Origin: a virus
Length of the DNA stretch: 28,901 nt
Direction: 5' to 3' (one strand)
Virus record (IMG/VR): IMGVR_UViG_3300025108_000274
Location: 1-28,901 of that record
Positions 1 through 27,832 of this stretch are shown in pieces. The notes under the pieces were generated by a model. That model made no database searches, was not told the origin of the DNA, and saw only the letters and a list, made by a program, of their open reading frames with translations. Made by a program: the position numbers and the translations under genes. Each line of letters opens with the position of its first letter. The first letter of the stretch is position 1.

Positions 1-3000
1 ACTTCGACGCGAGCAAGAATTTCTATAAGATTCTTTTCCGTCCTGGGTATTCTATCCAGACTAGAGAATTAACACAAATACAATCTATTCTACAGAATCA
101 GGTTGAAAGTTTTGGTAAGTATGCTTTCAAACAAGGAGACTTAGTTGTCCCTGGAGAGGTTGGACTTAACACCAAACTAGATTACGTAAAACTATCTTCT
201 GTATCAGAAGTCGCTGTATCAGATGGCGATGATATCGTTTATAAAAAATATGATATTAGTCAGCTTATTGGATTACAAATCCGAGGTTTGAGTTCTGGGG
301 TAATTGCTACTGTTCTAGAAACAAAGTTAGCAACAGATTCTACTGCTGATACAGTATATGTAAATTATCTAAGTAGCGGAAATTCTAATTTAGATGATAC
401 ATTTCGTCAAGGAGAAACACTCGAAGTAGTAGATGGAGTTAATAGTCCATTACTAGTTGTTGGAACTGATGGAAGTGTTCTTCCAACTAGTATCCAAATT
501 ACAAATCCAGATACGGATGAAGTTACTCCACTAGAAAGTCCTGCTATGGGATATGCTTCTGCTGTAAAAGTAGAAGAAGGTATATATTTCGTAAATGGAT
601 ATTTTGTTAGAAACGAAAAACAACTTTTAGTAATAGACGACTATTATAATAATCCATCCGCAAAAGTTGGATTTACTATCGTTGAAGAAGTTGTTACTCC
701 AGAAGAAGATGCATCTCTATATGATAATTCTATTGGATCTGCAAACTATTCTGCTCCTGGCGCACACAGACTTAAAATTAGTTTAACAATTAAGAAATTT
801 AAACTATCTGAAGCGACAGATAAGAATTTTATTCAACTAATCACAGTATACAAAGGATTAGTACAGAAAAAAGTATCTCCTACAAACTACAGTTTAATTG
901 AGCAAACTCTTGCTAGAAGAACTTTTGACGAAAGTGGTGATTATGTTGTAAATAATTTCTCTGTGGACATCAGAGAATATGCACAAAAAGATAAAAATGG
1001 TGGTGTTTATAAAGTTGATGAGTTTGATCTATATAACGGATTAAGTGAGTCTGAAGCAAGTAGAAAAATGCTTGCTGGTATTGGACCAGGTAAAGCATAT
1101 ATCAGAGGATATGAAATTGTCAACAAAGAGACAAAATTTTTAGAAATTAGCAAAGCAAGAGAATCTCTTTCAAGTGATAATGTTATACTGAAAACTAAAG
1201 GACTTCCCACTTTCAATATTACTAACACGTATGGAAGTGTCCCATTAAATAAAGAAGGTGGAGATCTCACCGCATATCCATATATCAATTTATTCGCTAC
1301 TTATAATGATGGATCTATTGGTCTTAATGGATCAGAAAAATCTACAGACCATAGACAAACTTTAAATAAAAGAGGAACCACATTAACAAGTAATGATGGT
1401 ATTAAAACAGTTACTATTAATGTAACGAACACAACCACTACATTGGCATCAATTACAGATGGTACGTTTGCTAATTTGGCAGATTTGTATTTTATCAAAA
1501 CTAGAGATGATGCTGGCAATGCTCTTACAACAGGAACATTAAAATCGTTATCTTTTGCTAAAGTAAACAAACCATTACTCAACGCTAATGATTCTGTTTT
1601 ATTCCTAGAATTAACAGTAGTTGGAGAGAAAGAAGATATTGAATTATTGATGCTGGAATACGATCCAGGCGATACTAACTATGAAAGAAATCTATTTTTA
1701 TCAGAAGCAGATGCTGCGACTGATAGTAATGAATTGGGATATATTATAGACTACAGTGAAACTATCACACCTTTAGTTGGTAGAGCAAAACCAAGCAACT
1801 ATTTCTTAAAGAATAGAGGTCTTGGATTCAATTCAGACTCTGACATTATTTTATCTAAAGGAAGATTGGCAGGAGGCGGTGATACATACAATGCTATTTT
1901 TGGTCTTTCTTATTTTGACCCCGAATTTTATACAAAATTACTACTGCAAACTGTTCCACAAAATAATAGTTTTGGAATTGGTAAGTATGTTGTTGGATTG
2001 ACTAGTGGTGCTTATGGAGTTGTTGAAGGAGCACCTTCTGGAACATATTCTATTGGCAGTATTCTATTTGTAAAAACTCTTTCTGGTAAATTTACTTCCG
2101 GAGAATCTATTAGAGATGAAGACGGAGTTACAAATAAAATTGCTAAAGATAACACAATTTCTAAATTTATTGTAGCTAATCGTGGACTTGGATATGCTGA
2201 TGGTTCTACTATTATCGTTAATGGCGTAGAATATGATGCTGCAGCAGCAGAGTTGATGCGTTTGACAAACGGTTCGTTCTACACAATTCAAATTAATAAT
2301 AAGTCTGCTTTATCTACAGAGTATTCTCAACCACCATCGGTATCTATTAAACAACCAGATGGATCTGCTAATCCTAGCATTAGTGCTGTCATTTTACCTG
2401 TACTAACTAGAAATTCTGTAACGACTTACACACCACAAAATGTAAAATCTGTAGCAGCACAATATGGATCTGGTAATGCTAATATTTTTACTGCAGATTT
2501 AGTCACAGATGATCAATCGTATGCTGAAATTAAATCAGTCACTGATTTTACTTTCTTTGGTTCTAAAGGTTATAATTTTATAGAATCTACTAGTTTTAGT
2601 GCTGATGCCAGTATTTTGCTACAGCAAGGAGATGTTATTCAGTTTTCAGATGAAAGCAATACACTAGTTCGTGCTGTCGTACAATATGCTACTCAAAGAC
2701 AAGGATCTTCTAAGTCTAGAGTATACATGGATACTGTTCTTCCTGGTAATGTAACCAATACTAGTATTGTTAGATTACGTCCAAGAGTAGAAAATGCTAA
2801 CTTAGGAACTTTACTATTCCCAACAGGAAGCAATCAAATTAAAAAAGTTTCTAGTACACCCGAAGAAACAAATATCAAGTATTTTTTCCGTAGAGATTTC
2901 GTAACTACAGCGTCTACGTCTGGTGGTACAATCACTTTTGCTGCTCAACTACCATTTGGCACACAAAGGTTTGCCACTTTTACTGAAGAAAATTATATCA

Positions 3001-6000
3001 TTACTGTATTAGATCCAGGTGATGCTCCAAATATTAGTAAAGGTGATATCATTTACGTTGATGTAGATTCTGTGGACATTAGTTCTGCTACTGATACAGC
3101 AAGTGGACTAACATCTGGTAGTATTAGTCTTAATTTACCAACATCATACTTTGGAACTATTCCAGTAAATGGTACATTCCCCAAGTTAAAACTATCCGCA
3201 ACATTAGAAGTTTCAAATGCCAAACCTAGATTAAAAACTTCTATTGAAAACAGAAGAATTGTTGTCACTTCTTCAGGAGATCGTGTAATTCCATTTAGAG
3301 GAACTAATTACGATAGTGATGTTGTTGAAACTATTTCGTATTCGGATGCTTATAAACTGAAATATGTCTATGAGGGTAGCGCAACACAACCACCAACCGT
3401 TGATACTTCAGGACAGTTAATTTCCGGAATAGATGTAACAGATAGATTTACGTTTGATAATGGACAAAGAGATACCGTATATGATGTTTCTCGTATTGTA
3501 TTAAAACCTGGAAAAGAACAAACTACAGGTCAACTTGTAATTGCTTTTGATTACTTTGAACAGTCTCAGGGAGACTTCTGTACAATTGATAGTTATATTC
3601 ATGAAGCAGGTGTAACCGAAGACCTTATTCCTTCATTCAATTCTTCTGTATATGGAATTGTAAATTTAAAAAATTTATTAGACTTTAGACCTAAGGTTGA
3701 TTCTGCATCAACTATCGCTGGTTTCCAAGATCAATCTTCATTGGCAGATAGTGTAGGTAAGTTTGCTGGAGTGGGATCTGTAATTGCTGCTACCCCAGCA
3801 CCAGATCTTGGACTAGAGTACACAATCTCCTTTAGTCAAGTACAATATCTTGATAGAATTGATGGAGTTTTCTTAAATAAAAATGGAAACTTTATTGTTA
3901 AGGAAGGAAACTCTTCATTAAATCCAACTAAACCAGATCCTATTGATGATGCGATTGCTTTATTCTATGCCTATATTCCTGCGTTTACTCAAACCAGCAA
4001 AGATGTAAGAATTACATCAGTCGATAATCGCCGTTATACAATGCGTGATATCGGCAAACTAGAGAAGCGTATTGAGCGTCTTGAATATTATACTACACTC
4101 AGCATTTTAGAGCAACAAGCTTTAAACATGCAGGTCAAAGACGAAATTGGTTTGGATAGATTCAAATCAGGTTTCTTAGTTGATAATTTTGAATCTCATA
4201 GATCTGGAAATCTAGTATCTCTTGATTACCAATGTGCGGTTGATTCTCAGCAATCAGTTTTACGTCCACAATCTAAGGAAGATTCTTTATTCTTAGAAGA
4301 ACTTAATACTAGAGAAGATCAAAGATTTGTTTCTGGATATAAAAAATCTGGCAACATTATTACTCTTCCCTATACTAGTTTGAATCTATTAGGTAATAGT
4401 TTTGCTTCAAAAACACTAAATCCAAATCCATTTGTTGTTCTACAATATGTTGGCGATGCTTCAATATCACCAAGTATTGATCAGTGGTATGATCAATCAA
4501 TAGAACCTCTTGTAGTAGATACAAATACGGATCTATACAAGATTTTTCTTGCTAAGCAAGATGTAAGAGAAAGTTTTTCCAGTTTATACAATTCTTTTGT
4601 TATAAACTGGGTTGGATCTTCTCCATCATTCACATCTATAAATTCTCTAGGACAGATCAATTCCTTGGAATCTCAGTCTTCTGTAAGTAAGGCTTCTGTT
4701 TCAAGTTCTTCAAACATCAGTCCACAAAATAATGATGTTGCTAAAGGAGTACAATCTTCTATCGTCAGAGGCAATTCTGTATCCACCTCACTACAATTCT
4801 TTGCTAGAAGTCAACCCGTCAAGTTTGTAATTAGCAGACTAAAACCGAATACTAATATTTCAGTATTCTTGGAAGGTAGAGATATCAGTCGTTGGGTAAA
4901 TCCTGATCTTAGATTTACTGGTATTGCTGGTAATTCATTATCAGCTTTTAACGGCAATATAACTACAGATAACGATGGTAATGCTAGTGGACTAATCTTA
5001 TTACCTGCAGGTTTTGCTCCTAGACAAAATGCTACATGGGGTGGCGATGTTGATACTGTTGATTATGATACAGAATCTGAAGAAGTAAGAATTACATCTG
5101 GAGTTAAGACTTTCAGGTTTACTTCAAGCGATAGCGATGCTGATAAACTAACGGTATCTACTTACGCAGAAGTCAAATACTATGCTACTGGCATTTTACC
5201 AGAAAATCCTGTTAGTATTATCTCAACTAAACCATCTTTCTTTAAAGCAAATGAGGGTGTTCAATTTGTTGATAGTAATACAGACAATCCTGTAAGACCA
5301 AATCCACTTGCTCAAACATTTAAAGTTGAAAACTATGATGGTGGAGTATTTACTACTGGCATTGACCTTTACTTTAACAAAAAGAGTAATAAGGTTCCTG
5401 TCAAAGTATACTTAACCAATGTAGACTCAGACAAACCAGGCAAAAATATTATTCCTGGAACAGAAAAAATCCTATCCCCATTTACGTATATCAAATTCTC
5501 GGCAAATGGAAATGTTTATATTACCAAAGGCGAAAACGTAACGGGAACTACTTCTGCCGCAAGTGGTCCAATTGAAAAGGTTATTGATAAAAATGGTGTT
5601 GATTTAGTTCCATCTTCTTCTGGTAGATTTTTGTTAACAAATGAGCAAGTATATACACTTGTTCTGAGTAATCATAATGGTCGTTCGTTTAATCAAAACG
5701 AACAACTTTCAGTTCCATCAGTAACTCTCAGAAACAATACACAGGGAGAATTTGGAGTTCTAACTGTTGCGAAAGATAGTGGTAAAGTTTCAAATATTAG
5801 AATTACATCTACGGGACAAAATTATACCAACGCAATTCTAACCATTGAAAGTCCACAACTCCCTGGTGGATCTGTTGCTACTGCTAGTGTGGAAGTGTCT
5901 GATGGCAAACTTTATAATACAGAAATTAGTTTGAATGGATTTGGATATACCGAACCTCCATCGGTCGTCATCAAAGGCATCGGTAATGGCGCTGGAGGAG

Positions 6001-8072
6001 CGATAATTGAGACTGAGATAGAGATTGATAGTCCAGCTGTTAGGATGGGTGTAGCAGTGGATCAGACCGGTCTCACAGATTCCACTGTTCCAACACATTT
6101 TGAATTTGAACATCCTGTATATCTACAGAATGACACAGAGTACGCTATGGCAATTGAAACAGATTCAACTGACTATGAAATTTGGGTATCTAGACTTGGA
6201 GAAGTTGATGTTTCTACAAGCACTGTTGTTACGACGCAACCTTCTCTTGGTTCAGTATACAGATCACAAAATGTAGACAATTGGACAGAAGATAATTTTG
6301 AGGATGTCAAGTTTACTCTATACAGAGCAGAATTTAATATCACCAAAACTGCAGAGTTGGTATTAACAAATGAATCTTTAGGATATGAGTTATTATCTAA
6401 GAATCCATTTAATACTAATGCCACAGCTAATACAAACGCGACTTCAAACCTATTCAGAAACAATAATAATATTATTCAAGTATCACATAGAGATAATGGA
6501 TTTGAAACTTCCGGATCTTCTTATGTTTTCTTCAAAGGTGCAGTTGAAACTGGTGGTGTAACTTCGGATGTTTTAAATAGTAAGTTATTCCAAATTACAA
6601 ATAGTGGAATTGATACTTACAATATTGTATCAACTATTGCTGCTTCTGGAAATATTGAAGGTGGTGGTGAAGCAGTATATGCTACTTACAATAGAAAATA
6701 TGAAATTTTATATCCACAAATTCAATACTTATCATTTACTGGAACTAAACTAAGTTCTTCTATCAAAACAACAAATGTTGTTCCTGTAGATTCAACAACT
6801 AATAATTACACATCGTACTCACAAACAGATTATGAAAAGACATTTTTAAATGAACCACATTATTTTACGAATCAAAAATTTATTGCTTCTGACATTAATG
6901 AGACATTAAACAATGTTACTTCATTAATGTATAAGTTGTCTCTTTCATCTACTGTTTCATATCTTTCTCCTGTAGTTGATCTTTCCACAGCAAGTGTCAA
7001 AACTATATCAAATAGAATTGAATCTGCTACTGGACAAGAAGACAGATACGGAAGAAGAGATCAAATCATTAAATTCTACCCAATCTATAAGTTTAATATA
7101 GGAAATACCAGCGGTAGTCAAATTCAAGATAACCAAGCTATTGAAGGATATACTTCAAAAGCAGTTGGTACTATTGCCAAAGTTGATGGTTCTACAGTTT
7201 ATGTGAGACTTAAAACAAGTCAATTCTTCAAAAGGGGAGAAAGAGTTACACTAGGAAATCAAACAACGTTAGTCGAAACTGTTAATGGTGTAGTTGTTCC
7301 AGCTGCTACTATTGATACTAATCCAATTGAAGTATTCATTGATATTCCTGACGCAGCAACTATGGTTGCCAGAAATCCGTCTAATATTTTAGAATCATAT
7401 GATAACATTATTACAGGAACTGCGGTTATATGGAATAATAAAACTCAAGAATTAGAAGTCAGAAATGATACACAACCATTGATAGATGACTTCACTGGAA
7501 GGATCATTGATAATACAGTGTTTAATAGAAATTCTGTTGTAATTGATCAACTTTCTGATATCTTTAGAGTAGGAGACTTCCTCAAGTATCCAAATCAAAT
7601 AGATAGTGAAGCAAGATTCTTAGAAATCAAAACTATTACTTATGCCAACGGAATAGAATATGTTTCCGATAACACGTCTAAGAATAGTTCTACTGTAGCA
7701 AAATATGTTACAAAAGAAGTCGTAATTAATAATCCCGCGACTGCTGTTGATGTTCACATAACATTAAATTCTAAAGATATTAATGACGTTCAAGTTCTTT
7801 ACAAGTTTAAAAAATCTTCAAGTCAAGAAAACTTTGAAGACATTAACTGGATATACTTCAATGAAAATGGAAAACCAAATTCTCTAGAGATTGCTACTCC
7901 AGAAAATACAATTTCTTCTATTGTAGAGAAACAATCTTCATATCAAGACATTACTTATAGTGTGTCTGATCTCCCAGAGTTTTCATCTTTTGCTATCAAA
8001 ATTGTTATGAAAGGAGTTGATCCGGCATTTGTTCCTAAGATTCAAGATATTAGAGCAGTAGCAGCATTTTAA
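1..8072 (+). CDS. Giant DUF4815-type virion structural protein, 5' partial
   Basis: The frame is open from base 3, so the true start lies before the window; about 2689 residues are visible. The first visible residues (FRPGYSIQTRELTQIQSILQ, then FKQGDLVVPGEVGL) and later pieces such as GYFVRNEKQL and SAPGAHRLKI match what I recall of DUF4815 proteins, found in T4-like cyanophages among baseplate and tail genes. A short predicted coiled coil lies near visible residues 1340-1375 (LEKRIERLEYYTTLSILEQQ). Further on are beta-rich repeats: GxGY-type repeats (nt 2161-2405 and 5764-6030) and several 'GE-x-V-x-G-x-TS' segments (near nt 1980, 5530 and 7145). A cytoplasmically assembled virion component of the baseplate or fibre network is inferred; the exact T4 equivalent is unclear. 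No signal peptide or frameshift is seen. A TTG at 288 is not the start, because homologous sequence continues upstream of it. Confidence 0.85.
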   Translation, partial: FDASKNFYKILFRPGYSIQTRELTQIQSILQNQVESFGKYAFKQGDLVVPGEVGLNTKLDYVKLSSVSEVAVSDGDDIVYKKYDISQLIGLQIRGLSSGVIATVLETKLATDSTADTVYVNYLSSGNSNLDDTFRQGETLEVVDGVNSPLLVVGTDGSVLPTSIQITNPDTDEVTPLESPAMGYASAVKVEEGIYFVNGYFVRNEKQLLVIDDYYNNPSAKVGFTIVEEVVTPEEDASLYDNSIGSANYSAPGAHRLKISLTIKKFKLSEATDKNFIQLITVYKGLVQKKVSPTNYSLIEQTLARRTFDESGDYVVNNFSVDIREYAQKDKNGGVYKVDEFDLYNGLSESEASRKMLAGIGPGKAYIRGYEIVNKETKFLEISKARESLSSDNVILKTKGLPTFNITNTYGSVPLNKEGGDLTAYPYINLFATYNDGSIGLNGSEKSTDHRQTLNKRGTTLTSNDGIKTVTINVTNTTTTLASITDGTFANLADLYFIKTRDDAGNALTTGTLKSLSFAKVNKPLLNANDSVLFLELTVVGEKEDIELLMLEYDPGDTNYERNLFLSEADAATDSNELGYIIDYSETITPLVGRAKPSNYFLKNRGLGFNSDSDIILSKGRLAGGGDTYNAIFGLSYFDPEFYTKLLLQTVPQNNSFGIGKYVVGLTSGAYGVVEGAPSGTYSIGSILFVKTLSGKFTSGESIRDEDGVTNKIAKDNTISKFIVANRGLGYADGSTIIVNGVEYDAAAAELMRLTNGSFYTIQINNKSALSTEYSQPPSVSIKQPDGSANPSISAVILPVLTRNSVTTYTPQNVKSVAAQYGSGNANIFTADLVTDDQSYAEIKSVTDFTFFGSKGYNFIESTSFSADASILLQQGDVIQFSDESNTLVRAVVQYATQRQGSSKSRVYMDTVLPGNVTNTSIVRLRPRVENANLGTLLFPTGSNQIKKVSSTPEETNIKYFFRRDFVTTASTSGGTITFAAQLPFGTQRFATFTEENYIITVLDPGDAPNISKGDIIYVDVDSVDISSATDTASGLTSGSISLNLPTSYFGTIPVNGTFPKLKLSATLEVSNAKPRLKTSIENRRIVVTSSGDRVIPFRGTNYDSDVVETISYSDAYKLKYVYEGSATQPPTVDTSGQLISGIDVTDRFTFDNGQRDTVYDVSRIVLKPGKEQTTGQLVIAFDYFEQSQGDFCTIDSYIHEAGVTEDLIPSFNSSVYGIVNLKNLLDFRPKVDSASTIAGFQDQSSLADSVGKFAGVGSVIAATPAPDLGLEYTISFSQVQYLDRIDGVFLNKNGNFIVKEGNSSLNPTKPDPIDDAIALFYAYIPAFTQTSKDVRITSVDNRRYTMRDIGKLEKRIERLEYYTTLSILEQQALNMQVKDEIGLDRFKSGFLVDNFESHRSGNLVSLDYQCAVDSQQSVLRPQSKEDSLFLEELNTREDQRFVSGYKKSGNIITLPYTSLNLLGNSFASKTLNPNPFVVLQYVGDASISPSIDQWYDQSIEPLVVDTNTDLYKIFLAKQDVRESFSSLYNSFVINWVGSSPSFTSINSLGQINSLESQSSVSKASVSSSSNISPQNNDVAKGVQSSIVRGNSVSTSLQFFARSQPVKFVISRLKPNTNISVFLEGRDISRWVNPDLRFTGIAGNSLSAFNGNITTDNDGNASGLILLPAGFAPRQNATWGGDVDTVDYDTESEEVRITSGVKTFRFTSSDSDADKLTVSTYAEVKYYATGILPENPVSIISTKPSFFKANEGVQFVDSNTDNPVRPNPLAQTFKVENYDGGVFTTGIDLYFNKKSNKVPVKVYLTNVDSDKPGKNIIPGTEKILSPFTYIKFSANGNVYITKGENVTGTTSAASGPIEKVIDKNGVDLVPSSSGRFLLTNEQVYTLVLSNHNGRSFNQNEQLSVPSVTLRNNTQGEFGVLTVAKDSGKVSNIRITSTGQNYTNAILTIESPQLPGGSVATASVEVSDGKLYNTEISLNGFGYTEPPSVVIKGIGNGAGGAIIETEIEIDSPAVRMGVAVDQTGLTDSTVPTHFEFEHPVYLQNDTEYAMAIETDSTDYEIWVSRLGEVDVSTSTVVTTQPSLGSVYRSQNVDNWTEDNFEDVKFTLYRAEFNITKTAELVLTNESLGYELLSKNPFNTNATANTNATSNLFRNNNNIIQVSHRDNGFETSGSSYVFFKGAVETGGVTSDVLNSKLFQITNSGIDTYNIVSTIAASGNIEGGGEAVYATYNRKYEILYPQIQYLSFTGTKLSSSIKTTNVVPVDSTTNNYTSYSQTDYEKTFLNEPHYFTNQKFIASDINETLNNVTSLMYKLSLSSTVSYLSPVVDLSTASVKTISNRIESATGQEDRYGRRDQIIKFYPIYKFNIGNTSGSQIQDNQAIEGYTSKAVGTIAKVDGSTVYVRLKTSQFFKRGERVTLGNQTTLVETVNGVVVPAATIDTNPIEVFIDIPDAATMVARNPSNILESYDNIITGTAVIWNNKTQELEVRNDTQPLIDDFTGRIIDNTVFNRNSVVIDQLSDIFRVGDFLKYPNQIDSEARFLEIKTITYANGIEYVSDNTSKNSSTVAKYVTKEVVINNPATAVDVHITLNSKDINDVQVLYKFKKSSSQENFEDINWIYFNENGKPNSLEIATPENTISSIVEKQSSYQDITYSVSDLPEFSSFAIKIVMKGVDPAFVPKIQDIRAVAAF

Positions 8073-8081
8073 TTTCCGCGT

Positions 8082-8288
8082 ATGGGTTATATTAAAGTTA
8101 AAGGGCATGACGGTCTTGTCAGAGATGAGACCTCAGGTGCCATAGTCAATCACAACGATTCTGCTATCCAAGCAAGACGCAAGCAGCGACAGCTGAATTC
8201 CGCGTTGGACGACATAAATATCTTGAAGGATGAAGTCTCTGAAATCAAATCCCTACTTAGAGAGTTAATAAAAAATGCCAGCAATTAA
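8082..8288 (+). CDS. Small coiled-coil protein between two giant virion genes
   Basis: This 68-residue protein starts nine bases after the previous stop and overlaps the next gene by 14 bases, which suggests translational coupling. The N-terminus (MGYIKVKGHDGLVRDETSGA) resembles small proteins I associate with tail genes of marine T4-like phages. Residues 29-66 are charged and heptad-like (ALDDINILKDEVSEIKSLL), a predicted amphipathic helix or short coiled coil. There are no cysteines and no membrane segment. The function is unknown. Its position suggests a small structural or assembly partner of the flanking giant proteins, but this rests on context only. Confidence 0.8.
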   Translation: MGYIKVKGHDGLVRDETSGAIVNHNDSAIQARRKQRQLNSALDDINILKDEVSEIKSLLRELIKNASN

Positions 8289-11200
8289 TGTCGCTAGAAC
8301 TGATACTTTTGAAAAACAAAGGTTAAAAATTAACGAAATTGGTTCTCAAATTTTTAACGTTACTGCTGGTGGCAGTGATCTTGCTACGGGCAATTTAAAA
8401 CTAGGGAATGGATCAAGAATTGCTCCGTCATTATCTTTTACGAATGATGCTCAAGTTGGTATTTACAGACCTTCTGGTGGAACTCTTGGTCTTGTAGGAG
8501 GAGCAAAAAATATTATTGATTTCTCAAACGAAGATATTTTTTCTTATAGGAATATTTCGTTTAGAAAAAAAGTTTTATCAGATGCAAATTTAACTTTAAC
8601 AAGTTCAGGATTAAACTACGATTTTGGAACTTATAATAATATTTCTGTTGTTGGAGGATCTGGTGATCTTGGAACATTAGATATTGAAGTAGTGGCATAT
8701 TCTGGCACTATAACAAATACTGGACAAAATTATAATCCTGGATCATTTTCAAATGTTAGTCTTGCTGGTGGAAATGGAACTAATGCTACTGTAGATTTTA
8801 CTGTAGATGCTATTGATGGTTCTATTACAAGTAATGGTTCTCAGTATGCTCCTGGACAGTATCAGAATGTCAATCTCCAAAATGGTACTGGATCATCCGC
8901 TACAGCTAATATTACTATTACTGGCGAAGAAACAATTTCAGGTTCGATATCTAATGCTGGATCTCTATATGCAAATAACATCTACAATGGAGTTGCGATA
9001 AGAAATGATGCTACTGCTGTTTATGTTTTATCTTCTGTAGCAAATCCTGGTTCACCTCCGCCAAATAATGTATATCAGATTAATGGTATTACTCAGCAAG
9101 CATTAACTTTAATAAAAGGAAATACATATAGATTTGATATTTCAGATTCAAGTTTATCAACTCACCCATTACAATTTTTAACTGCTGGTGGTGCAGCATT
9201 AGATTTTCAAAGTTATGTTGTAAATAAAGTTGGAACAGAAGGTACTGCAGAATCATTTATTGATTTAATTATTTCTCCAAACGCTCCATCAGAAGCACTT
9301 AAATACGATTGTCAGAATCATCCAAATATGGGTGCTACTATGACAGTAGGAACCGGATCTGCTGGAGTTTCTGGTAGTGGAATGACTGCCAATTTTGAAG
9401 TTGTTGGTGGTGCTATACAAAATTTTGCTATTGCATCTCAAGGAAATGGATATAAAGTAAACGATTCCTTGACTGTTGCTGCATTTGATCTTGGAGGAAC
9501 TGGTTCAGGATTCCTCTATAATATTAATTCAATTACATATACAGGAACTGTAACCGATGTAAGTATTATATCTTCTGGACAAAATTATGTTTTGGGTGAT
9601 GTATTAACAGCAAACGATTCTGATCTAGGAAATGGTGGTGGATCTGGATTTGAATATACAGTAAATACTTCTCCAGGAATTATTAAAGATTTAACCTTTG
9701 TTGATAGAGGAACGAATTATCAAACCAATGATGTATTAACATTACAAACAGGATTATCTGGAATTACTGGGGACTTTATAGTTCCTATTACAGGAGTTTC
9801 TGCAACAACAGATGGTTCAACAACTGTTACTGTTGCATCTACTGTTGGTATTTACAGTGGAATGGTTATCACTGTTAGTGCTGGTCCAGGTGATTTGGCA
9901 CCAAACACAACCGTAGATACAATTTTAAACTCAACATCATTTACAGTTTCGCAAAATTCTGTTGCTAGTGGATCTTTAACTTTAGATTTTGCAACATCTG
10001 GAAGTTCGGATGAAGTTATAGTTTCCTCCATAGCAGGAATTTCTGTGGGTGATATTCCTACAGTATCATCTGGTGTTGGTGTTTTACCAGCAAATACAAC
10101 AATTACTAATATCAATGAACTAGGTTCTTCAATTACATTATCAAATACACCCACTTCGGGTGGACCAGTAACATTAACTATTAGTCCAGCATATGGTGTT
10201 GGCACAACCCCATTTGCTTATCAAATTTTGAATTTGGGAGCAGTATCAACAGTAAGTGTCAATAATCCTGGTAATGGTTACAACCAGGGCGATCTTCTCT
10301 CTGTATCACCAACAGATTTAATTCAACCAACTACTTATTCAGTAAAATCTCCCACAGTTCAAACACTCACATTTTCAGGAAGTGTATCTACCTCATTATT
10401 AAGTGTTGGTGATATATTAGATTACGATGACGGAACTTTTGTTTCTTCTTTTGAGATTATCAATATCACAGCATCTGGACCAAATATTTCTGATGTTACT
10501 GTAATTGGCGAAACTTTACAACCATCAAATATTCTTGTTAAGCAAGGAACTTCATCTCCACAACTAACAATTAATACTGTATCAAATGGATTTAGATTTT
10601 TAATTGATACCGGTGGTGGTTTTACTTTAACTCCAGATTTGACATTGTATGTTGGTAATACATACGCTTTTGATTTAAGTGATTCAACAAATTCTAGTCA
10701 TTCATTTGCATTCTCTAAATTTAGAGATGGTATTCATTCACCAAGCAAAATAGAAAATATTTCGACTTCTCTAGTCTCTGGTTCTAGAGTAATAACAGTT
10801 GCTTCCACAACTGGCATTTTAGCTGGTATGGAGTTAGAGAAAATTTCAGGAGACGGGGAATTTTTAATAGGAACTGTTGTTGAAAGTGTGGATTCTGGAA
10901 CGCAAATTACTCTATCACAAAATCCAACATCTGCTGGTGCAATTATACTTACATTTGCAGGAACAGAATATACAGACGGAGTTGTCAGAACATCAAATTT
11001 ATTAACACTCAAAATTACCGAAGGCACTCCATCTCCCCTATATTATTTTTGCAATAATTCTGGTGCTACTCATACTAATATGGGTGGAGAAGATAATACG
11101 GAAGCAGAGATAACTATAGATCCAAACAATCCAAAAACTTTTGGATCTGGATTTCAACTATCTGTAGATAATAGTTCATCTACAGATACAGTAAAAATTG

Positions 11201-13116
11201 ATATCTTATCTGGAATAATTAATACTAATGACATTGTTAGTAGTACTGGAACTATTCAAACAATAAACTCTACAACATTAACCACAAATACTGCCGGAGT
11301 TGACACATTAACTGTCTCCAATATTGCATCTGCATCATCTTTAAATGTTACTGCAGTAACAGAATTTAGTCAAAATGTTCTAGTTGGAAGCAATCTTGAA
11401 ATTACTGCTACTAATGGTAATATTACTACCAACGGAACATTAAGATCCAATGCTAGTGTTAATGTTAGTGGGAAACTCGCTATCAATAACAGCACAATTT
11501 CTTCAATTGGAACTAATGATCTGATTTTATCTCCAGCTGGAGGAAAATTAGTCAAAGTAGACACAACAACTTCACTACTTATTCCAGTTGGTACTAGTTT
11601 AGAAAGACCAACGTTTACTACGGGTGAAGGAGATGGTGCAATTCGTTTCAACACCGTAAGTGGTCAGTATGAAGGATATAATGCTACAACACAATCATGG
11701 TCATCACTTGGTGGGGTTCGTGATATTGATGGCAACACTTATATTCTAGCAGAACTTACTGCAGGATCAAATGATAATATTTTATATTTTTATAATGATA
11801 ACAATAATACACTACAATTAACTACAAATCAATTACGTTTTGAAAGTGTAAAAGAACTTGCATCACCTAGATTAGGAATTCCAGCATATACAGAATGGAC
11901 GGCAAATACTCCAGTAACAACTGGTCAGTATCTTAAATATAGAAATAATTTATATGAAGTAACATCTGATGGCAGCACAGGAACATCTGGTAGCGAACCT
12001 ATACATGTTTCTGGCACTCAAAATAATGGAACGGCACAGTTAAATTGGAGTCAAATTGCAGTTTCTCCAATTATCTTTAATGAAGCAGAAGAAGTTAGAG
12101 TTGGTCCTAACAAAGACTGTCCGCTAATTGTTAACTCTGAAATTAAAATTAGTTCTAATGAAATTTCTTCTCTCGTTGAAAATTTAGTTTTTAAACCAAA
12201 TTCAGGAAAACAAACTATTGTTGATTCCAATACTCACTTCAGAATTCCTGCAGGTGATAATAATGCAAAAAATCTTGCGCCAGCTGGTCCTGGTTCTATT
12301 AGATTTAATACAGAAATTTTACAATTTGAAGGATATAGTGGTAATAACTGGTCTTCTCTTGGTGGTGTAAGAGATGTTGATGGGAATACGTATATTATTC
12401 CTGAAACTGCTCCTGCAGCAAACGAAAATATTTTATATTTTTATAATAATAATGTAAACACTTTACAACTTTCTGTAAGTTCGTTAGATTTTACTAATAT
12501 TGACACTATTACTACTGGAGGAAATAGTTTAGAACTTAGTGCGGAAATTGTAACGTTAAATGCTGGTGATACTACTGTTGACAACACTAGTGCTGACCGT
12601 ACATTTATTAGTAGCACAAAACAATATCTTGATTTTGGTCTGTCTTCTGGATTAAATGTAGATCCTATTTTGAGACTGGATGATCAAGGTGATGTTTTCT
12701 TAAACACAACTTTTGGAAGTGGATCTTTTAACGGTGTTAAAGTTCTTGACGGAGCACTAAAAGAATTTGAACTAGCAGATTATAAAATTAGCACAGCAAC
12801 ATTTGCGTTAATTAAAGGTGGATCTGAATCTTCTTCTGTTATTTTATATCCAAGTGGAAGTAGTAAAGGATGTAAAATAACAGTAGTTTCTAAATCTGCA
12901 TCTGGTAAAAGATCTATGACAGAGTATTCAGTTATAGATAATGGCACAGACATCTTCCATAATGAATATGCGTCTTTGAATACTTCTGCTGATCAGTATA
13001 CATCTGTTTTTGATCTTACTGCTGCAACAGAACCCAGAATAACTTTATCTTTGTCAGATGATCATGACACTGGTGATATTGTTAACTTCACCGTACTAAT
13101 ACAGGAAATTAAGTAA
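8275..13116 (+). CDS. Modular tail-fibre-like virion protein with cupredoxin-like domains (1613 aa)
   Basis: A large beta-rich protein built from repeats, with no signal peptide. Approximate order: N-terminal segment (1-100); GxxY-type beta repeats (110-240); a cupredoxin-like domain (246-358) with H297, C346, H349 and M352; more GxxY repeats (375-500); two tandem 'T-x-TVAST-x-GI' modules (505-640); another GxxY repeat (655-690); a second cupredoxin-like domain (763-945) interrupted by a third copy of the same module; a duplicated segment (1063-1199 and 1283-1419), each copy holding 'IRFNT ... W-SSLGGVRD'; a W/Y-rich module between the copies (1205-1262); and a C-terminal region ending VLIQEIK. 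The IRFNT/YNG-W and GGVRD-DGNTY pieces are typical of marine T4-like phage fibre proteins. ATG 8275 overlaps the upstream gene and is preceded by a purine-rich stretch. A virion fibre or baseplate role is inferred; copper binding is a hypothesis. Confidence 0.8.
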   Translation: MPAINVARTDTFEKQRLKINEIGSQIFNVTAGGSDLATGNLKLGNGSRIAPSLSFTNDAQVGIYRPSGGTLGLVGGAKNIIDFSNEDIFSYRNISFRKKVLSDANLTLTSSGLNYDFGTYNNISVVGGSGDLGTLDIEVVAYSGTITNTGQNYNPGSFSNVSLAGGNGTNATVDFTVDAIDGSITSNGSQYAPGQYQNVNLQNGTGSSATANITITGEETISGSISNAGSLYANNIYNGVAIRNDATAVYVLSSVANPGSPPPNNVYQINGITQQALTLIKGNTYRFDISDSSLSTHPLQFLTAGGAALDFQSYVVNKVGTEGTAESFIDLIISPNAPSEALKYDCQNHPNMGATMTVGTGSAGVSGSGMTANFEVVGGAIQNFAIASQGNGYKVNDSLTVAAFDLGGTGSGFLYNINSITYTGTVTDVSIISSGQNYVLGDVLTANDSDLGNGGGSGFEYTVNTSPGIIKDLTFVDRGTNYQTNDVLTLQTGLSGITGDFIVPITGVSATTDGSTTVTVASTVGIYSGMVITVSAGPGDLAPNTTVDTILNSTSFTVSQNSVASGSLTLDFATSGSSDEVIVSSIAGISVGDIPTVSSGVGVLPANTTITNINELGSSITLSNTPTSGGPVTLTISPAYGVGTTPFAYQILNLGAVSTVSVNNPGNGYNQGDLLSVSPTDLIQPTTYSVKSPTVQTLTFSGSVSTSLLSVGDILDYDDGTFVSSFEIINITASGPNISDVTVIGETLQPSNILVKQGTSSPQLTINTVSNGFRFLIDTGGGFTLTPDLTLYVGNTYAFDLSDSTNSSHSFAFSKFRDGIHSPSKIENISTSLVSGSRVITVASTTGILAGMELEKISGDGEFLIGTVVESVDSGTQITLSQNPTSAGAIILTFAGTEYTDGVVRTSNLLTLKITEGTPSPLYYFCNNSGATHTNMGGEDNTEAEITIDPNNPKTFGSGFQLSVDNSSSTDTVKIDILSGIINTNDIVSSTGTIQTINSTTLTTNTAGVDTLTVSNIASASSLNVTAVTEFSQNVLVGSNLEITATNGNITTNGTLRSNASVNVSGKLAINNSTISSIGTNDLILSPAGGKLVKVDTTTSLLIPVGTSLERPTFTTGEGDGAIRFNTVSGQYEGYNATTQSWSSLGGVRDIDGNTYILAELTAGSNDNILYFYNDNNNTLQLTTNQLRFESVKELASPRLGIPAYTEWTANTPVTTGQYLKYRNNLYEVTSDGSTGTSGSEPIHVSGTQNNGTAQLNWSQIAVSPIIFNEAEEVRVGPNKDCPLIVNSEIKISSNEISSLVENLVFKPNSGKQTIVDSNTHFRIPAGDNNAKNLAPAGPGSIRFNTEILQFEGYSGNNWSSLGGVRDVDGNTYIIPETAPAANENILYFYNNNVNTLQLSVSSLDFTNIDTITTGGNSLELSAEIVTLNAGDTTVDNTSADRTFISSTKQYLDFGLSSGLNVDPILRLDDQGDVFLNTTFGSGSFNGVKVLDGALKEFELADYKISTATFALIKGGSESSSVILYPSGSSKGCKITVVSKSASGKRSMTEYSVIDNGTDIFHNEYASLNTSADQYTSVFDLTAATEPRITLSLSDDHDTGDIVNFTVLIQEIK
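9010..9345 (+). other. Cupredoxin-like domain 1 with complete type-1 copper ligand pattern
   Basis: Residues about 246-358 of the 1613-residue protein read as a small beta-barrel of the cupredoxin type: 'GNTYRFDISDSS' followed by 'THPLQF' (H297), a variable loop, then 'LKYDCQNHPNMG' (C346, H349, M352). The spacing C-x2-H-x2-M is that of amicyanin, and the upstream His in a 'x-H-P-x-x-F' strand matches the first ligand of plastocyanin-like proteins. The residues are seen directly. The fold and actual copper binding are inferred and not shown. Bacterial cupredoxins are normally periplasmic and exported, so one inside a phage fibre would be loaded, if at all, after lysis or outside the cell. Confidence 0.6.
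9790..10190 (+). repeat. Two tandem 'TVAST-GI' beta modules in the fibre protein
   Basis: Two consecutive segments of about 65 residues share the pattern 'T-x-V-T-V-AS-x-x-GI-x-x-GM ... T-x-I-x-x-(S/T)-x-x-x-(S/L)-x-N' and end in short hydrophobic strands (SLTLDF, VTLTIS). A third copy is inserted in cupredoxin-like domain 2 (about nt 10765-10965). They look like small beta-sandwich or hairpin modules used as spacers; the exact fold is not recognised. Confidence 0.5.
10561..11110 (+). other. Cupredoxin-like domain 2, split by an inserted beta module
   Basis: Residues about 763-945 repeat the plan of domain 1: 'GNTYAFDLSDST', then 'SSHSFAF' (H809), then 'YYFCNNSGATHTNMGG' (C926, H933, M936). 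H809 and C926 are 117 residues apart, against 49 in domain 1. The extra length is largely a 'SRVITVASTTGILAGM ... ITLSQNPTSAG' module (about nt 10765-10965) that also occurs twice in tandem at nt 9790-10190. The ligand loop is C-x6-H-x2-M, four residues longer than in domain 1, so metal binding may be altered or lost. Confidence 0.5.
11461..12530 (+). repeat. Duplicated fibre segment with IRFNT and GGVRD-DGNTY motifs
   Basis: Two copies (nt about 11461-11870 and 12121-12530) follow the same order: a short 'ISS ... L-x-x-x-P-x-x-GK' strand pair, an 'IP-x-G' turn, 'IRFNT', a 'Y ... W-SSLGGVRD' segment, 'DGNTYI', then 'N-x-NILYFYN' and 'TLQL'. The DNA is diverged but alignable. A W/Y-rich module of about 58 residues separates the copies. 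This indicates an internal duplication followed by, or together with, insertion of a separate module. Confidence 0.65.
11887..12060 (+). repeat. W/Y-rich module, copy in the 1613-residue protein
   Basis: Residues about 1205-1262 contain W1208, 'GQYLKYRNNLYEVTSDG', 'GTSGSEPIHVSG' and 'NGTAQLNW'. The same plan recurs at nt 14230-14405 in the 3126-residue protein (W193, 'YRYSVSNVYQATNTG', 'GSLSPEHKDG', 'NGTVNF'). Aromatic residues around a short 'G-x-x-x-x-x-Y' core recall small carbohydrate-binding modules of the CBM5/12 type, but that similarity is weak and only by eye. Confidence 0.45.
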
Positions 13117-23934: not shown

Positions 23935-24957
23935 ATGGGAATTTTAAACGTTGGTATTGGGGAAGCAGCAGAATCTATTATCCTTCCTCAAATTACAACT
24001 GCTCAAAGGAACGCTCTTCCTCCAGAAACAGGGCAAATTATTTTTAATACCGATGATTTTGAAGTGCAGTTCTACAATGGAACTGAATGGAAAAATGGCG
24101 GATCTGCTCCGTTTGAAGCTACTGGCGGTGTTATCAATGACATAGGTGGATATAGAGTTCACTTATTTGAAAATGACGGTGCTTTTACTGTAACTGCTGG
24201 TGCAAGAAATTGTGAGTTTCTTGTCGTTGCCGGTGGCGGCGGTGGCGGAGGATGGGGCGGCGGCGGTGGCGCTGGTGGATACCGTTCTTCAGTTGTAGGA
24301 GAAACTTCTGGTGGTGGAATTGCACCTGAAGGAACTTTATCTGCTGTAGAAGGATCATACACTGTTAAAGTTGGTGCAGGGGGAGCAAGAGGTAGTACTG
24401 GATATACTGGTGGTGGTGCTGGTCAAGATTCTTATATAATTGGTCCTGGTGGAACTAATATTACATCAAAAGGTGGTGCTGGTGGAGGTTGGTGGCAAGG
24501 TAATGTTCCTCCAATTGGTGGATCTGGTGGCGGTGGATCAGGTTCTGGTGCTGGTAGTGCTGGAACATCAGGACAAGGTAGTGCTGGTGGATCTGGACAA
24601 GGTAGTCAAAGTAGTCCATATCTAGGACACGGAGGTGGCGGTGGCGCTGGTCAAGTCGGTCAAGTCGGTTCTGGTGTTACTGGTGGTAATGGCGGCAACG
24701 GAATAACTTCTTCTATAACTGGGTCAGCTGTAGTTCGTTCTGGTGGTGGTGGAGGTCATTCTCCAGGTCTAGGTAATAGCGCACTATCTTCTGGTGGTTC
24801 TGGCGGCGGCGGTGGTGGTGGAAACTACTACAATGCAGCTCCAGCACAAAATGGAAACTCCAACACAGGTGGCGGAGGCGGCGGAAATTATGGAGACGGT
24901 TCCAGACTTTGTGGTGAAGGCGGATCTGGTATTGTTGCTATAAGATATCCAATCTAA
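23935..24957 (+). CDS. Glycine-rich adhesin candidate, copy 1 (340 aa)
   Basis: Residues 14-56 are the shared N-terminal module ('LPQITTAQRNALPPETGQII', then 'FNTDDFEVQFYNGTEWKNGG'). A short beta piece follows ('YRVHLFENDGAFTV'), then 'EFLVVAGGGGGGGWGGGGG' and a long glycine-rich domain to the end (GGSGIVAIRYPI). This matches a domain type very common in marine phages (Gly_rich_2-like). Runs of glycine with interspersed aromatic and Ser residues recall the polyglycine-II sandwich of the Salmonella phage S16 gp38 adhesin, so a distal receptor-binding role is plausible. It is not collagen-like: there is no regular G-X-Y pattern. It has its own promoter-like box and a diverged paralogue directly downstream. 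Confidence 0.8.
   Translation: MGILNVGIGEAAESIILPQITTAQRNALPPETGQIIFNTDDFEVQFYNGTEWKNGGSAPFEATGGVINDIGGYRVHLFENDGAFTVTAGARNCEFLVVAGGGGGGGWGGGGGAGGYRSSVVGETSGGGIAPEGTLSAVEGSYTVKVGAGGARGSTGYTGGGAGQDSYIIGPGGTNITSKGGAGGGWWQGNVPPIGGSGGGGSGSGAGSAGTSGQGSAGGSGQGSQSSPYLGHGGGGGAGQVGQVGSGVTGGNGGNGITSSITGSAVVRSGGGGGHSPGLGNSALSSGGSGGGGGGGNYYNAAPAQNGNSNTGGGGGGNYGDGSRLCGEGGSGIVAIRYPI
24232..24275 (+). repeat. 44-bp identical glycine-codon patch shared with the downstream paralogue
   Basis: This stretch is identical base for base to 25300-25343 in the second glycine-rich gene. It is a local GC-rich island in an AT-rich region. Another patch, 24472-24548, matches 25537-25613 at 76 of 77 bases. Confidence 0.85.
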
Positions 24958-24960
24958 ATA
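24953..24960 (+). promoter_or_regulatory. Putative late promoter box (TCTAAATA)
   Basis: TCTAAATA includes the TAA stop of the first glycine-rich gene and ends 21 bases before the ATG of the second, the same spacing as the box before copy 1. No Shine-Dalgarno sequence is evident between them. Confidence 0.5.
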
Positions 24961-24981
24961 TTACATAGAATAATCAAAACA

Positions 24982-26022
24982 ATGTCTAAAATTATTGTAG
25001 ATCAATTAAATGCAACTGAAGCATTTAAAGTTCCAACATACACTGAAGCACAGAGAGATGCTTTGGTAGATGTGTTGGAAGGATTTTTAATTCATAATTC
25101 TACAGCAGAACAATTAGAAATTTATTATTCTGGTGATTGGAGAAATTTGGGAAATAAAACAGCAGCTGGAGGTGGAAGTATAGAAGCCATAGGTGGAACT
25201 GTTTCTACATCAGGTGCTTATAAGGTTCATACTTTTGAGAGTGATGGAATTTTTACAGTAAATTCTGGAACAACAGAAATTGAATACTTAGTTATCGCTG
25301 GTGGCGGCGGTGGCGGAGGATGGGGCGGCGGCGGTGGCGCTGGCGGTTATCGCTGTTCTGTAGTTGGAGAGCAGTCTGGTGGTCAAACACCAGCAGAAAA
25401 TAAAGTAGAAGTTACTGAAGGTGCTTATTCTGTCAAAGTTGGCAGTGGAGGAGCAAGAGGTACTACTGGATATACTGGTGGTGGTTCTGGCGAAGACTCG
25501 GAAATTGCAGGTCCTGGTGTTTCAATTACAGCAAAAGGTGGTGCTGGTGGCGGTTGGTGGCAAGGTAATGTTCCTCCAATTGGTGGATCTGGTGGCGGTG
25601 GATCAGGTTCTGGATCAGGTTCTGCTGGTGTTGCCGGACAAGGTAATGCTGGCGGAAATGGACAAGGTGCTCAAAGTGGTCCATACTTAGGACATGGTGG
25701 AGGAGGAGGTTCTTCATCGGGTGGTAAAGTAGGTTCTGGTGTTACTGGTGGTAATGGCGGCAACGGAACTGCTTCATTAATTACAGGACAATCTATCATC
25801 AGAGCAGGTGGTGGTGGAGGTCATTCTCCAGGTTTGGGCAATTCGGCATTATCTTCTGGTGGCACTGGAGGCGGTGGTGGTGGTGGAAACTACTACAATG
25901 CAGCTCAAGCAGAAAATGGCAGTGATGGTAAAGGTGGCGGAGGCGGTGGAAATTATGGAGACGGTTCTAGACTTTGTGGTGAAGGCGGATCTGGTCTTGT
26001 AGTTATACGATACCCCGCTTAA
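24982..26022 (+). CDS. Glycine-rich adhesin candidate, copy 2 (346 aa)
   Basis: A tandem paralogue of the preceding gene with the same plan. The N-terminal module (about 13-57: 'VPTYTEAQRDAL', 'YYSGDWRNLG') is strongly diverged from copy 1. It is followed by 'YKVHTFESDGIFTV', 'EYLVIAGGGGGGGWGGGGG' and a long glycine-rich domain ending 'GEGGSGLVVIRYPA'. Several glycine-rich stretches are nearly identical in DNA to copy 1, while linker loops differ ('SSSGGKVGSG' here, 'AGQVGQVGSG' there; 'AQAENGSDGK' here, 'APAQNGNSNT' there). It is probably a receptor-binding or fibre-tip protein, either an alternative to copy 1 or a partner in the same structure. Confidence 0.8.
   Translation: MSKIIVDQLNATEAFKVPTYTEAQRDALVDVLEGFLIHNSTAEQLEIYYSGDWRNLGNKTAAGGGSIEAIGGTVSTSGAYKVHTFESDGIFTVNSGTTEIEYLVIAGGGGGGGWGGGGGAGGYRCSVVGEQSGGQTPAENKVEVTEGAYSVKVGSGGARGTTGYTGGGSGEDSEIAGPGVSITAKGGAGGGWWQGNVPPIGGSGGGGSGSGSGSAGVAGQGNAGGNGQGAQSGPYLGHGGGGGSSSGGKVGSGVTGGNGGNGTASLITGQSIIRAGGGGGHSPGLGNSALSSGGTGGGGGGGNYYNAAQAENGSDGKGGGGGGNYGDGSRLCGEGGSGLVVIRYPA
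25300..25613 (+). repeat. Near-identical DNA patches matching glycine-rich copy 1
   Basis: Within this span, 25300-25343 is identical to 24232-24275 and 25537-25613 matches 24472-24548 at 76 of 77 bases, while the sequence between is less similar. The mosaic suggests recent gene conversion or selection on the glycine framework. Confidence 0.8.
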
Positions 26023-26567: not shown

Positions 26568-27233
26568 ATGAAATTTCCTACATTATGTGTTGATGATTTT
26601 TACAAAAACCCAAAACAAATAAGAGACTATGCTTTGTCTCTAAACTATAATAAAGATCTTGGAATATTTCCTGGTGAAAGAACAAAATATTTACATGAAA
26701 TAAATCCAGGATTATTTGAACAATTTTGTCATAAATTATTTTCTTTATTTTTTAATTTTTCTGCAGAAAATTGTAATTGGAAAGTAGAAACAAGATTTCA
26801 AAAAACTTATCAAATATCGGATGATCCTACCAGCGTATTAAATCGTGGGTGGGATCATCTAGATAGCAATGTGGTTGCTGCTGGTTTAATTTACTTAAAC
26901 AAAAAATCTACGTTAGATAGTGGAACTACTATAAGCAAATTAAAAACAGAAAAAGAAACATTTGATTATTCTAAAAGAGACAAAATGTATCAATCTCGTG
27001 ATGTAAATTTAGAGGAATATAAAAAATCTATTGAGTTGCATAAAACATATTTTGAAGACACTATAGAATTTAAGAATGTTTTCAATAGAATGGTATGCTA
27101 TGATAGTTCACAGTGGCATAGAGAAACTAGTTTGTTTTACGAACACGAACCTAGACTTACACAGGTATTTTTTATTCATAATGTAGAATCAAATACTTTT
27201 CCCATTGAACGTTGTATGTCTTATGAGTTATGA
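26568..27233 (+). CDS. 2OG-Fe(II) dioxygenase-like protein, DUF6445-type (221 aa)
   Basis: Opening 'VDDFYKNPKQIRDYALSL' and the core 'GWDHLDSNVVAAGLIYLN' resemble DUF6445-like proteins of the 2-oxoglutarate/Fe(II) dioxygenase superfamily. Candidate iron ligands are H97 and D99 (an HxD motif in 'DHLDS') and H184 in 'SSQWHRE'; R196 in 'EPRLTQVFFI' is placed to bind 2-oxoglutarate. The complete triad suggests an active oxygenase, probably a hydroxylase acting on protein, sugar or a small molecule; the substrate is unknown. The gene starts one base after its upstream neighbour and overlaps the next by ATGA, so all three are probably co-translated. Confidence 0.65.
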   Translation: MKFPTLCVDDFYKNPKQIRDYALSLNYNKDLGIFPGERTKYLHEINPGLFEQFCHKLFSLFFNFSAENCNWKVETRFQKTYQISDDPTSVLNRGWDHLDSNVVAAGLIYLNKKSTLDSGTTISKLKTEKETFDYSKRDKMYQSRDVNLEEYKKSIELHKTYFEDTIEFKNVFNRMVCYDSSQWHRETSLFYEHEPRLTQVFFIHNVESNTFPIERCMSYEL

Positions 27234-27832
27234 TTTTAGATATTCCATCTGTCCCAATTGGTGTTTACGAAAATAACAATCAAGAAGAACATAGTTACTT
27301 CATCAATAAAATTGAGTACGAAGCACTCACAGAATGGGGACAAAGAAGTTGCAATAAATTTGTTCTAGATAAAACAAATTTAAAAATTTGGATTGAGTCT
27401 AAAATTCAGGACTATGCTAAATTATGTTTGGCAACTAATCAAAAATTATCGATAACACAAAGTTGGACATTAAAAAACGAAAACAGAGCATCCAAACTTT
27501 TTAAACATACGCATCCAAATTCAATTATTAGTGGAGCATATTATTTAAAATGCAGTGATCGATCATCACACTTAAAAATAGAAGCACAAAATTGTTTTAC
27601 TCCAGAAAGAATTACATGGGATAAAGACCAAAGTTTGTTTAAAGATCAACCATGGTTGTGGCAGTATTTTTCTTACCCTCCTAAGATTGGAAGACTTTAT
27701 CTTTTTCCTTCAAACTTAACTCACTATGTTGATCCAGAAATAGATAATGACACCCGATGTGTTTTATCCTTTAATACATGGTTTAATGATCCAATTGGAA
27801 ATGTAGAGAGTTTAACATTTCTAGGCATTTAA
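27230..27832 (+). CDS. Putative 2OG-Fe(II) oxygenase, PF13759/TIGR02466-like (200 aa)
   Basis: The core 'FKHTHPNSIISGAYYL' followed by 'GRLYLFPSNLTHYVDPEI' and 'TRCVLSFNTWF' fits the putative 2OG-Fe(II) oxygenase family common in marine cyanophages. Candidate metal-site residues are H93 and/or H95, possibly with N97, plus H165. R176 would contact 2-oxoglutarate. The first motif is HxHxN rather than HxD, so the exact ligand set is uncertain. The length is close to that usual for the family. Start ATG 27230 overlaps the TGA of the previous gene. It differs in sequence and motif from that neighbour, so the two are not simple duplicates. Confidence 0.7.
   Translation: MILDIPSVPIGVYENNNQEEHSYFINKIEYEALTEWGQRSCNKFVLDKTNLKIWIESKIQDYAKLCLATNQKLSITQSWTLKNENRASKLFKHTHPNSIISGAYYLKCSDRSSHLKIEAQNCFTPERITWDKDQSLFKDQPWLWQYFSYPPKIGRLYLFPSNLTHYVDPEIDNDTRCVLSFNTWFNDPIGNVESLTFLGI

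Follow-up and report, generated by a model that had tools for sequence, protein, structure and literature searches.

The stretch of DNA analysed here (the window; 28,901 bases, a complete IMG/VR virus record) encodes a large phage structural protein in which a small domain appears to hold the complete ligand set of a type-1 copper site. Plastocyanin, amicyanin and rusticyanin are soluble carriers, whereas this domain (domain 1) is a module within a large virion protein. The features on which the analysis rests are collected in Table 1.

Table 1. Features of the structural protein gene and its two cupredoxin-like copies; positions refer to the window.
Feature	Positions	Strand	Basis
Virion structural protein, 1613 aa, repeat-rich, with both cupredoxin-like copies	8275..13116	+	ORF, phrog matches
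Left half of fibre repeat unit split by domain 1 (approximate)	8935..9006	+	Alignment with ACG-2014i
Cupredoxin-like domain 1, residues 245-361	9007..9357	+	AlphaFold2 model, structure neighbours, plastocyanin profile alignment
H297, first putative type-1 copper ligand, in STHPLQF	9163..9165	+	Model position 53, before strand; pairs with plastocyanin His
C346, putative copper thiolate ligand	9310..9312	+	Model position 102, last residue of penultimate strand; pairs with plastocyanin Cys
H349, third putative ligand, in loop before last strand	9319..9321	+	Sequence, model, plastocyanin alignment
M352, putative axial ligand, C-x2-H-x2-M	9328..9330	+	Sequence, model, plastocyanin alignment
Right half of split fibre repeat unit (approximate)	9358..9405	+	Alignment with ACG-2014i
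Second, diverged cupredoxin-like copy (copy 2) with insert of ~70 residues	10531..11109	+	Profile matches; partly confident model
H809, presumed first ligand of copy 2	10699..10701	+	Alignment A5
Small beta domain between first His and Cys of copy 2 (approximate)	10750..10960	+	Confident model part, residues about 73-143
C926, H933, M936 of copy 2, CNNSGATHTNM, C-x6-H-x2-M	11050..11082	+	Sequence

The structural protein and the predicted fold of domain 1

The closest DNA relatives of the window are the Synechococcus myoviruses ACG-2014i, ACG-2014e and S-CAM4. The 1613-residue protein matches phrog_6005, a virion structural protein family (1735 bits), and phrog_32294, a baseplate wedge subunit, and its relatives in many cyanomyoviruses, including S-PM2p086, are annotated as virion structural proteins. 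The first-pass annotation had spoken of a phage fibre protein, which is approximate; given these family matches and annotations, tail-region structural protein is the safer name. Virions of the cyanophage S-SM1 have been examined by mass spectrometry, which identified 41 proteins, with orthologues marked (Sullivan and others, PMC3037559). The whole 1613-residue sequence contains four cysteines, C346, C926, C1282 and C1533. Elsewhere in the window, a 2594-residue ORF (288-8072) matches DUF4815 and phrog_358, of unknown function, two adjoining ORFs at 23935-26022 share closely similar glycine-rich regions, one of them matching Gly_rich_2, and look like a tandem duplicate, and two further adjoining ORFs at 26568-27832 match DUF6445 and a putative 2OG-Fe(II) oxygenase.

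Translation of the gene bears out the residues named in the first-pass annotation, with H297 in THPLQF and C346, H349 and M352 in YDCQNHPNMG, as well as the C-x2-H-x2-M spacing claimed for the last three. This spacing is of the amicyanin type, in contrast to the C-x2-H-x4-M of plastocyanin. When residues 245-361 were modelled with AlphaFold2 from 29 aligned sequences, a confident beta-sandwich of nine strands was obtained, with a mean pLDDT of 94.5. In the numbering of the model, H53 lies two residues before the strand formed by residues 55-59, C102 ends the penultimate strand (96-102), and H105 and M108 are in the loop that precedes strand 110-115, which are the standard topological positions of cupredoxin ligands. 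Judged from this topology, the four residues may lie close together in space.

Comparison of the model with known structures points in the same direction. Among PDB neighbours found by Foldseek, rusticyanins matched best, followed mostly by multicopper oxidases and nitrite reductase; the best 33 matches also include plastocyanin and other sandwiches such as Flt3 complexes, and similarity to the PDB entries is moderate, with TM-scores of about 0.5-0.6. The best 50 VIA matches listed are all copper proteins, the first being the first domain of a nitrite reductase. Its Z-score of 8.9 is only modestly above the 7-8 that is common as a best score for models with no clear match, and we therefore put weight on the uniformity of the list. 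Structure matches in a viral library comprise many marine phage fibre proteins and some beta-sandwich proteins of giant viruses. The fold predicted by these approaches is the cupredoxin-type sandwich that had been proposed and not another, and we regard residues 245-361 as very probably a cupredoxin domain.

Sequence comparison contributes less. Domain 1 of the window matched no cupredoxin family in Pfam or NCBIfam, including PF00127 (Copper-bind), plastocyanin and amicyanin, no Pfam family gathers the module, and a PDB search with the single domain 1 sequence returned nothing significant. The NCBIfam plastocyanin and amicyanin models gave weak matches in 1-2 of 19 relatives. The PDB entries that best matched a profile of the 19 relatives were plastocyanins (E 0.007), and when ten plastocyanins taken from genomes of cyanobacteria were aligned and compared with the profile by hhalign, the probability was 95.8 and all four ligands were paired. 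However, when the four ligand columns were masked on both sides the hhalign score fell from 50 to 19, which is the background level (the best of 30 column shuffles scored 18.5), showing that the sequence link to plastocyanin rests on the ligand motif. Since little sequence is shared beyond that motif, the fold prediction is the stronger argument.

Conservation of the ligand set

The first-pass annotation had asked whether the four residues are conserved together. Homologues were collected with a DNA seed for GNTYRFD, a stretch that contains no ligand, and the full set of H, C, H and M was present in 88 of the 93 domains with sufficient downstream sequence, a set being counted when any His occurred in the 23 residues after the seed together with C-x(2-8)-H-x2-M. 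This simple His criterion counted a chance His in one domain, L246. Two of the five exceptions (L217 and L246) retain none of the ligands, and the remaining three (L203, L230 and L312) belong to the copy 2 type and have partial sets. Once redundancy above 80% had been removed, 50 domains remained; their ligand columns show 92-96% conservation and rank among the seven best columns outside the seed. Further copies without ligands are seen, for example L037-L045 and L031, and incomplete sets are found for the most part in copy 2, with Glu frequently replacing Met. Joint retention of the ligands is accordingly the rule, and their loss is mostly, but not always, complete.

Because homologues gathered through a ligand-free seed keep the whole set so regularly, its presence in domain 1 is more than chance. 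The retention of all four residues in most copies also argues that a metal is probably needed for function and that the set is more than a leftover of the fold, whereas the existence of ligand-less copies indicates that the fold can serve without metal. On balance, we consider it likely that the site in domain 1 is kept for binding a metal. Two other lines of evidence were set aside. A count of 202 HCHM sets in 236 copies is biased, since the search patterns partly held the ligand motif, and was not used as main evidence; synonymous codon variation at the ligand sites was rejected as evidence of selection, because picking copies by a pattern fixes the residues.

Mobility of the module and its distribution

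Alignment with ACG-2014i revealed that the repeat unit split by domain 1 in the window is uninterrupted in that phage, and that the domain is absent at the same place. Domain 1 is also missing in S-PM2 and is present in S-H9-1. It is thus a mobile module inserted in one fibre repeat, and its presence in the window and S-H9-1 against its absence in ACG-2014i is modularity within virion proteins of the kind shown by the Ig-like domains that phages display. Members of the module match tail fibre, baseplate wedge and connector families. Locus searches were made with alignment A3, alignment A2 being too diverse for the purpose. Matches by tblastn were obtained in 53 of 50,697 phage records, from marine phages of several groups, and each of the six phage genomes searched contained one to five profile matches; no match to the module was found in the plasmids searched. 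S-H9-1 also encodes a subtilase-family protein (L375:1256-3262; MW117966.1 77755-79761, minus strand; Peptidase_S8 E 3.3e-21), and this carries a C-terminal cupredoxin-like copy with GHPF and YYYICQFHSGM.

The 1613-residue protein itself contains a second copy, which the first-pass annotation had missed. Its model is partly confident (pLDDT 69.6), with the cupredoxin part too uncertain to interpret. In copy 2 of related phages, Glu is often found at the Met position (alignment A5). Recent tandem duplication is not supported as the source of copy 2, as the two copies lie apart, in different parts of a tree that is poorly resolved.

Bacterial and archaeal genome contigs yielded 70 loci. These include SAR86 and Woeseiaceae proteins with a lipoprotein-like start and a terminal copy, of which two (L163:3639-5342 and L172:3453-5318) have an HExxH stretch and the copy at the C-terminus. 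Prochlorococcus proteins, among them L170:4926-6143, carry an N-terminal copy, and in a sample of that genus 7 of 41 genomes gave a match. On a contig binned as SAR116, a 215-residue protein (L133:4671-5315) starts MARFASGRKTYGISDRSGFRYR and has the copy at its end; similar starts are seen at L135, L137 and L146, and the L133 locus is probably of phage origin. A 189 kb contig labelled Prochlorococcus (L186) has five profile matches in large ORFs, and its size suggests that it may be a cyanophage genome sorted with the cell. Some of the nominally cellular contigs are probably phage.

Possible roles of the domain on the virion

Taken as a whole, the reading we favor is that domain 1 is a cupredoxin with an intact type-1 ligand set, carried as a mobile virion module in a metal-clamped display or adhesion role, and we give this full combination an even chance. 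The site would hold one metal ion, most likely copper, which would tie the first His to the Cys-His-Met loop, and the domain would be exposed on the tail exterior as a binding or adhesion module clamped by the metal, by analogy with the Ig-like domains that phages display. For the narrower proposal that the metal is most likely copper and that the module is used for display or binding on the virion, our expectation is likewise evenly divided. Ig-like virion domains, such as those of T4 Hoc (PMC10385173), are small beta-sandwich modules that vary between relatives, features that domain 1 shares; its closest structural counterparts are cupredoxins, whose sandwich is a related one, and it has a conserved metal-site motif. 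With plastocyanin, amicyanin and rusticyanin it has in common the beta-sandwich, the His before a strand and the arrangement of Cys, His and Met around the last loop. The cupredoxin domains of multicopper oxidases and nitrite reductases give the best structural Z-scores, but unlike these domain 1 stands alone in a structural protein, and an unsystematic look recognized no trinuclear or type-2 site.

Alternatively, the metal in the site might take part in attachment directly, being recognized by a metal-uptake system on the host surface or by a metal-dependent receptor. This would carry over to copper the 'Trojan Horse' idea put forward for iron in phage tails, for which there is a precedent in the HxH iron sites of tail fibres, found in T4 gp37 and proposed in marine phages such as alterophage R22Y (PMC11705849). 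Such sites resemble domain 1 in that a metal site is proposed in a phage tail protein; here, by contrast, the putative site is mononuclear, with four ligands within one chain, and no HxH motif was seen when the 1613-residue sequence was read by eye. The occurrence of the module in fibre, baseplate and connector families of several marine phage groups, and the retention of the ligands in most homologues, are consistent with direct attachment. However, no receptor is known, and the module is also present in marine bacteria, in lipoprotein-like and other proteins that imply no attachment to prey cells. We consider this explanation unlikely.

Less likely still, in our view, is a purely structural beta-sandwich whose ligand set is either a relic or a stabilizing site for zinc or iron. 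Ligand-less copies do persist (L037-L045, L031, L217 and L246), and Met is frequently replaced by Glu in copy 2 of related phages; on the other hand, complete sets in 88 of 93 domains are not expected of a relic, although that frequency says nothing against zinc or iron. That domain 1 serves on the cell surface as a genuine electron carrier or redox centre appears very unlikely. The domain does have the ligands and the C-x2-H-x2-M spacing of electron-transfer cupredoxins, but no redox partner was recognized in an unsystematic look at the window, and the structural proteins over which the module is spread are unrelated, a distribution more in keeping with display than with a dedicated route for electrons. 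Finally, a different beta-sandwich bearing the motif by chance, as the moderate TM-scores and the Flt3 receptor complexes among the Foldseek matches might allow, is hardly credible, since topology, ligand placement, top structural matches and profile alignment all agree on a cupredoxin.

The fold and the ligand set are already known, and it is their use as a recurrent virion-protein module that appears new in the open-licence literature we searched. Judged by title and the start of the abstract, no paper in that literature described the module as a recurrent unit of virion proteins or a role for it, and an earlier mention elsewhere is possible. No open-licence paper brought cupredoxin together with phage and tail fiber, or plastocyanin-like with cyanophage and tail, and cupredoxin and cyanophage occurred together only in a paper on Borgs, with one mention of each.

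The module is a recurrent, unannotated unit of the fibre and baseplate proteins of marine phages. It is tempting to extend the metal-clamped display reading to many marine tailed phages bearing several blue-copper centres per virion, which would act at the host surface in copper-dependent attachment or electron transfer and make virus particles a copper-binding pool in the ocean, but we hold this wider picture to be doubtful. Should copper indeed occupy the site, the particles of marine phages would contain a metal centre that, to our knowledge, is otherwise known only from cellular proteins, virus particles would be linked to marine copper chemistry, and the domain would offer a concrete test case for metal-dependent phage attachment.
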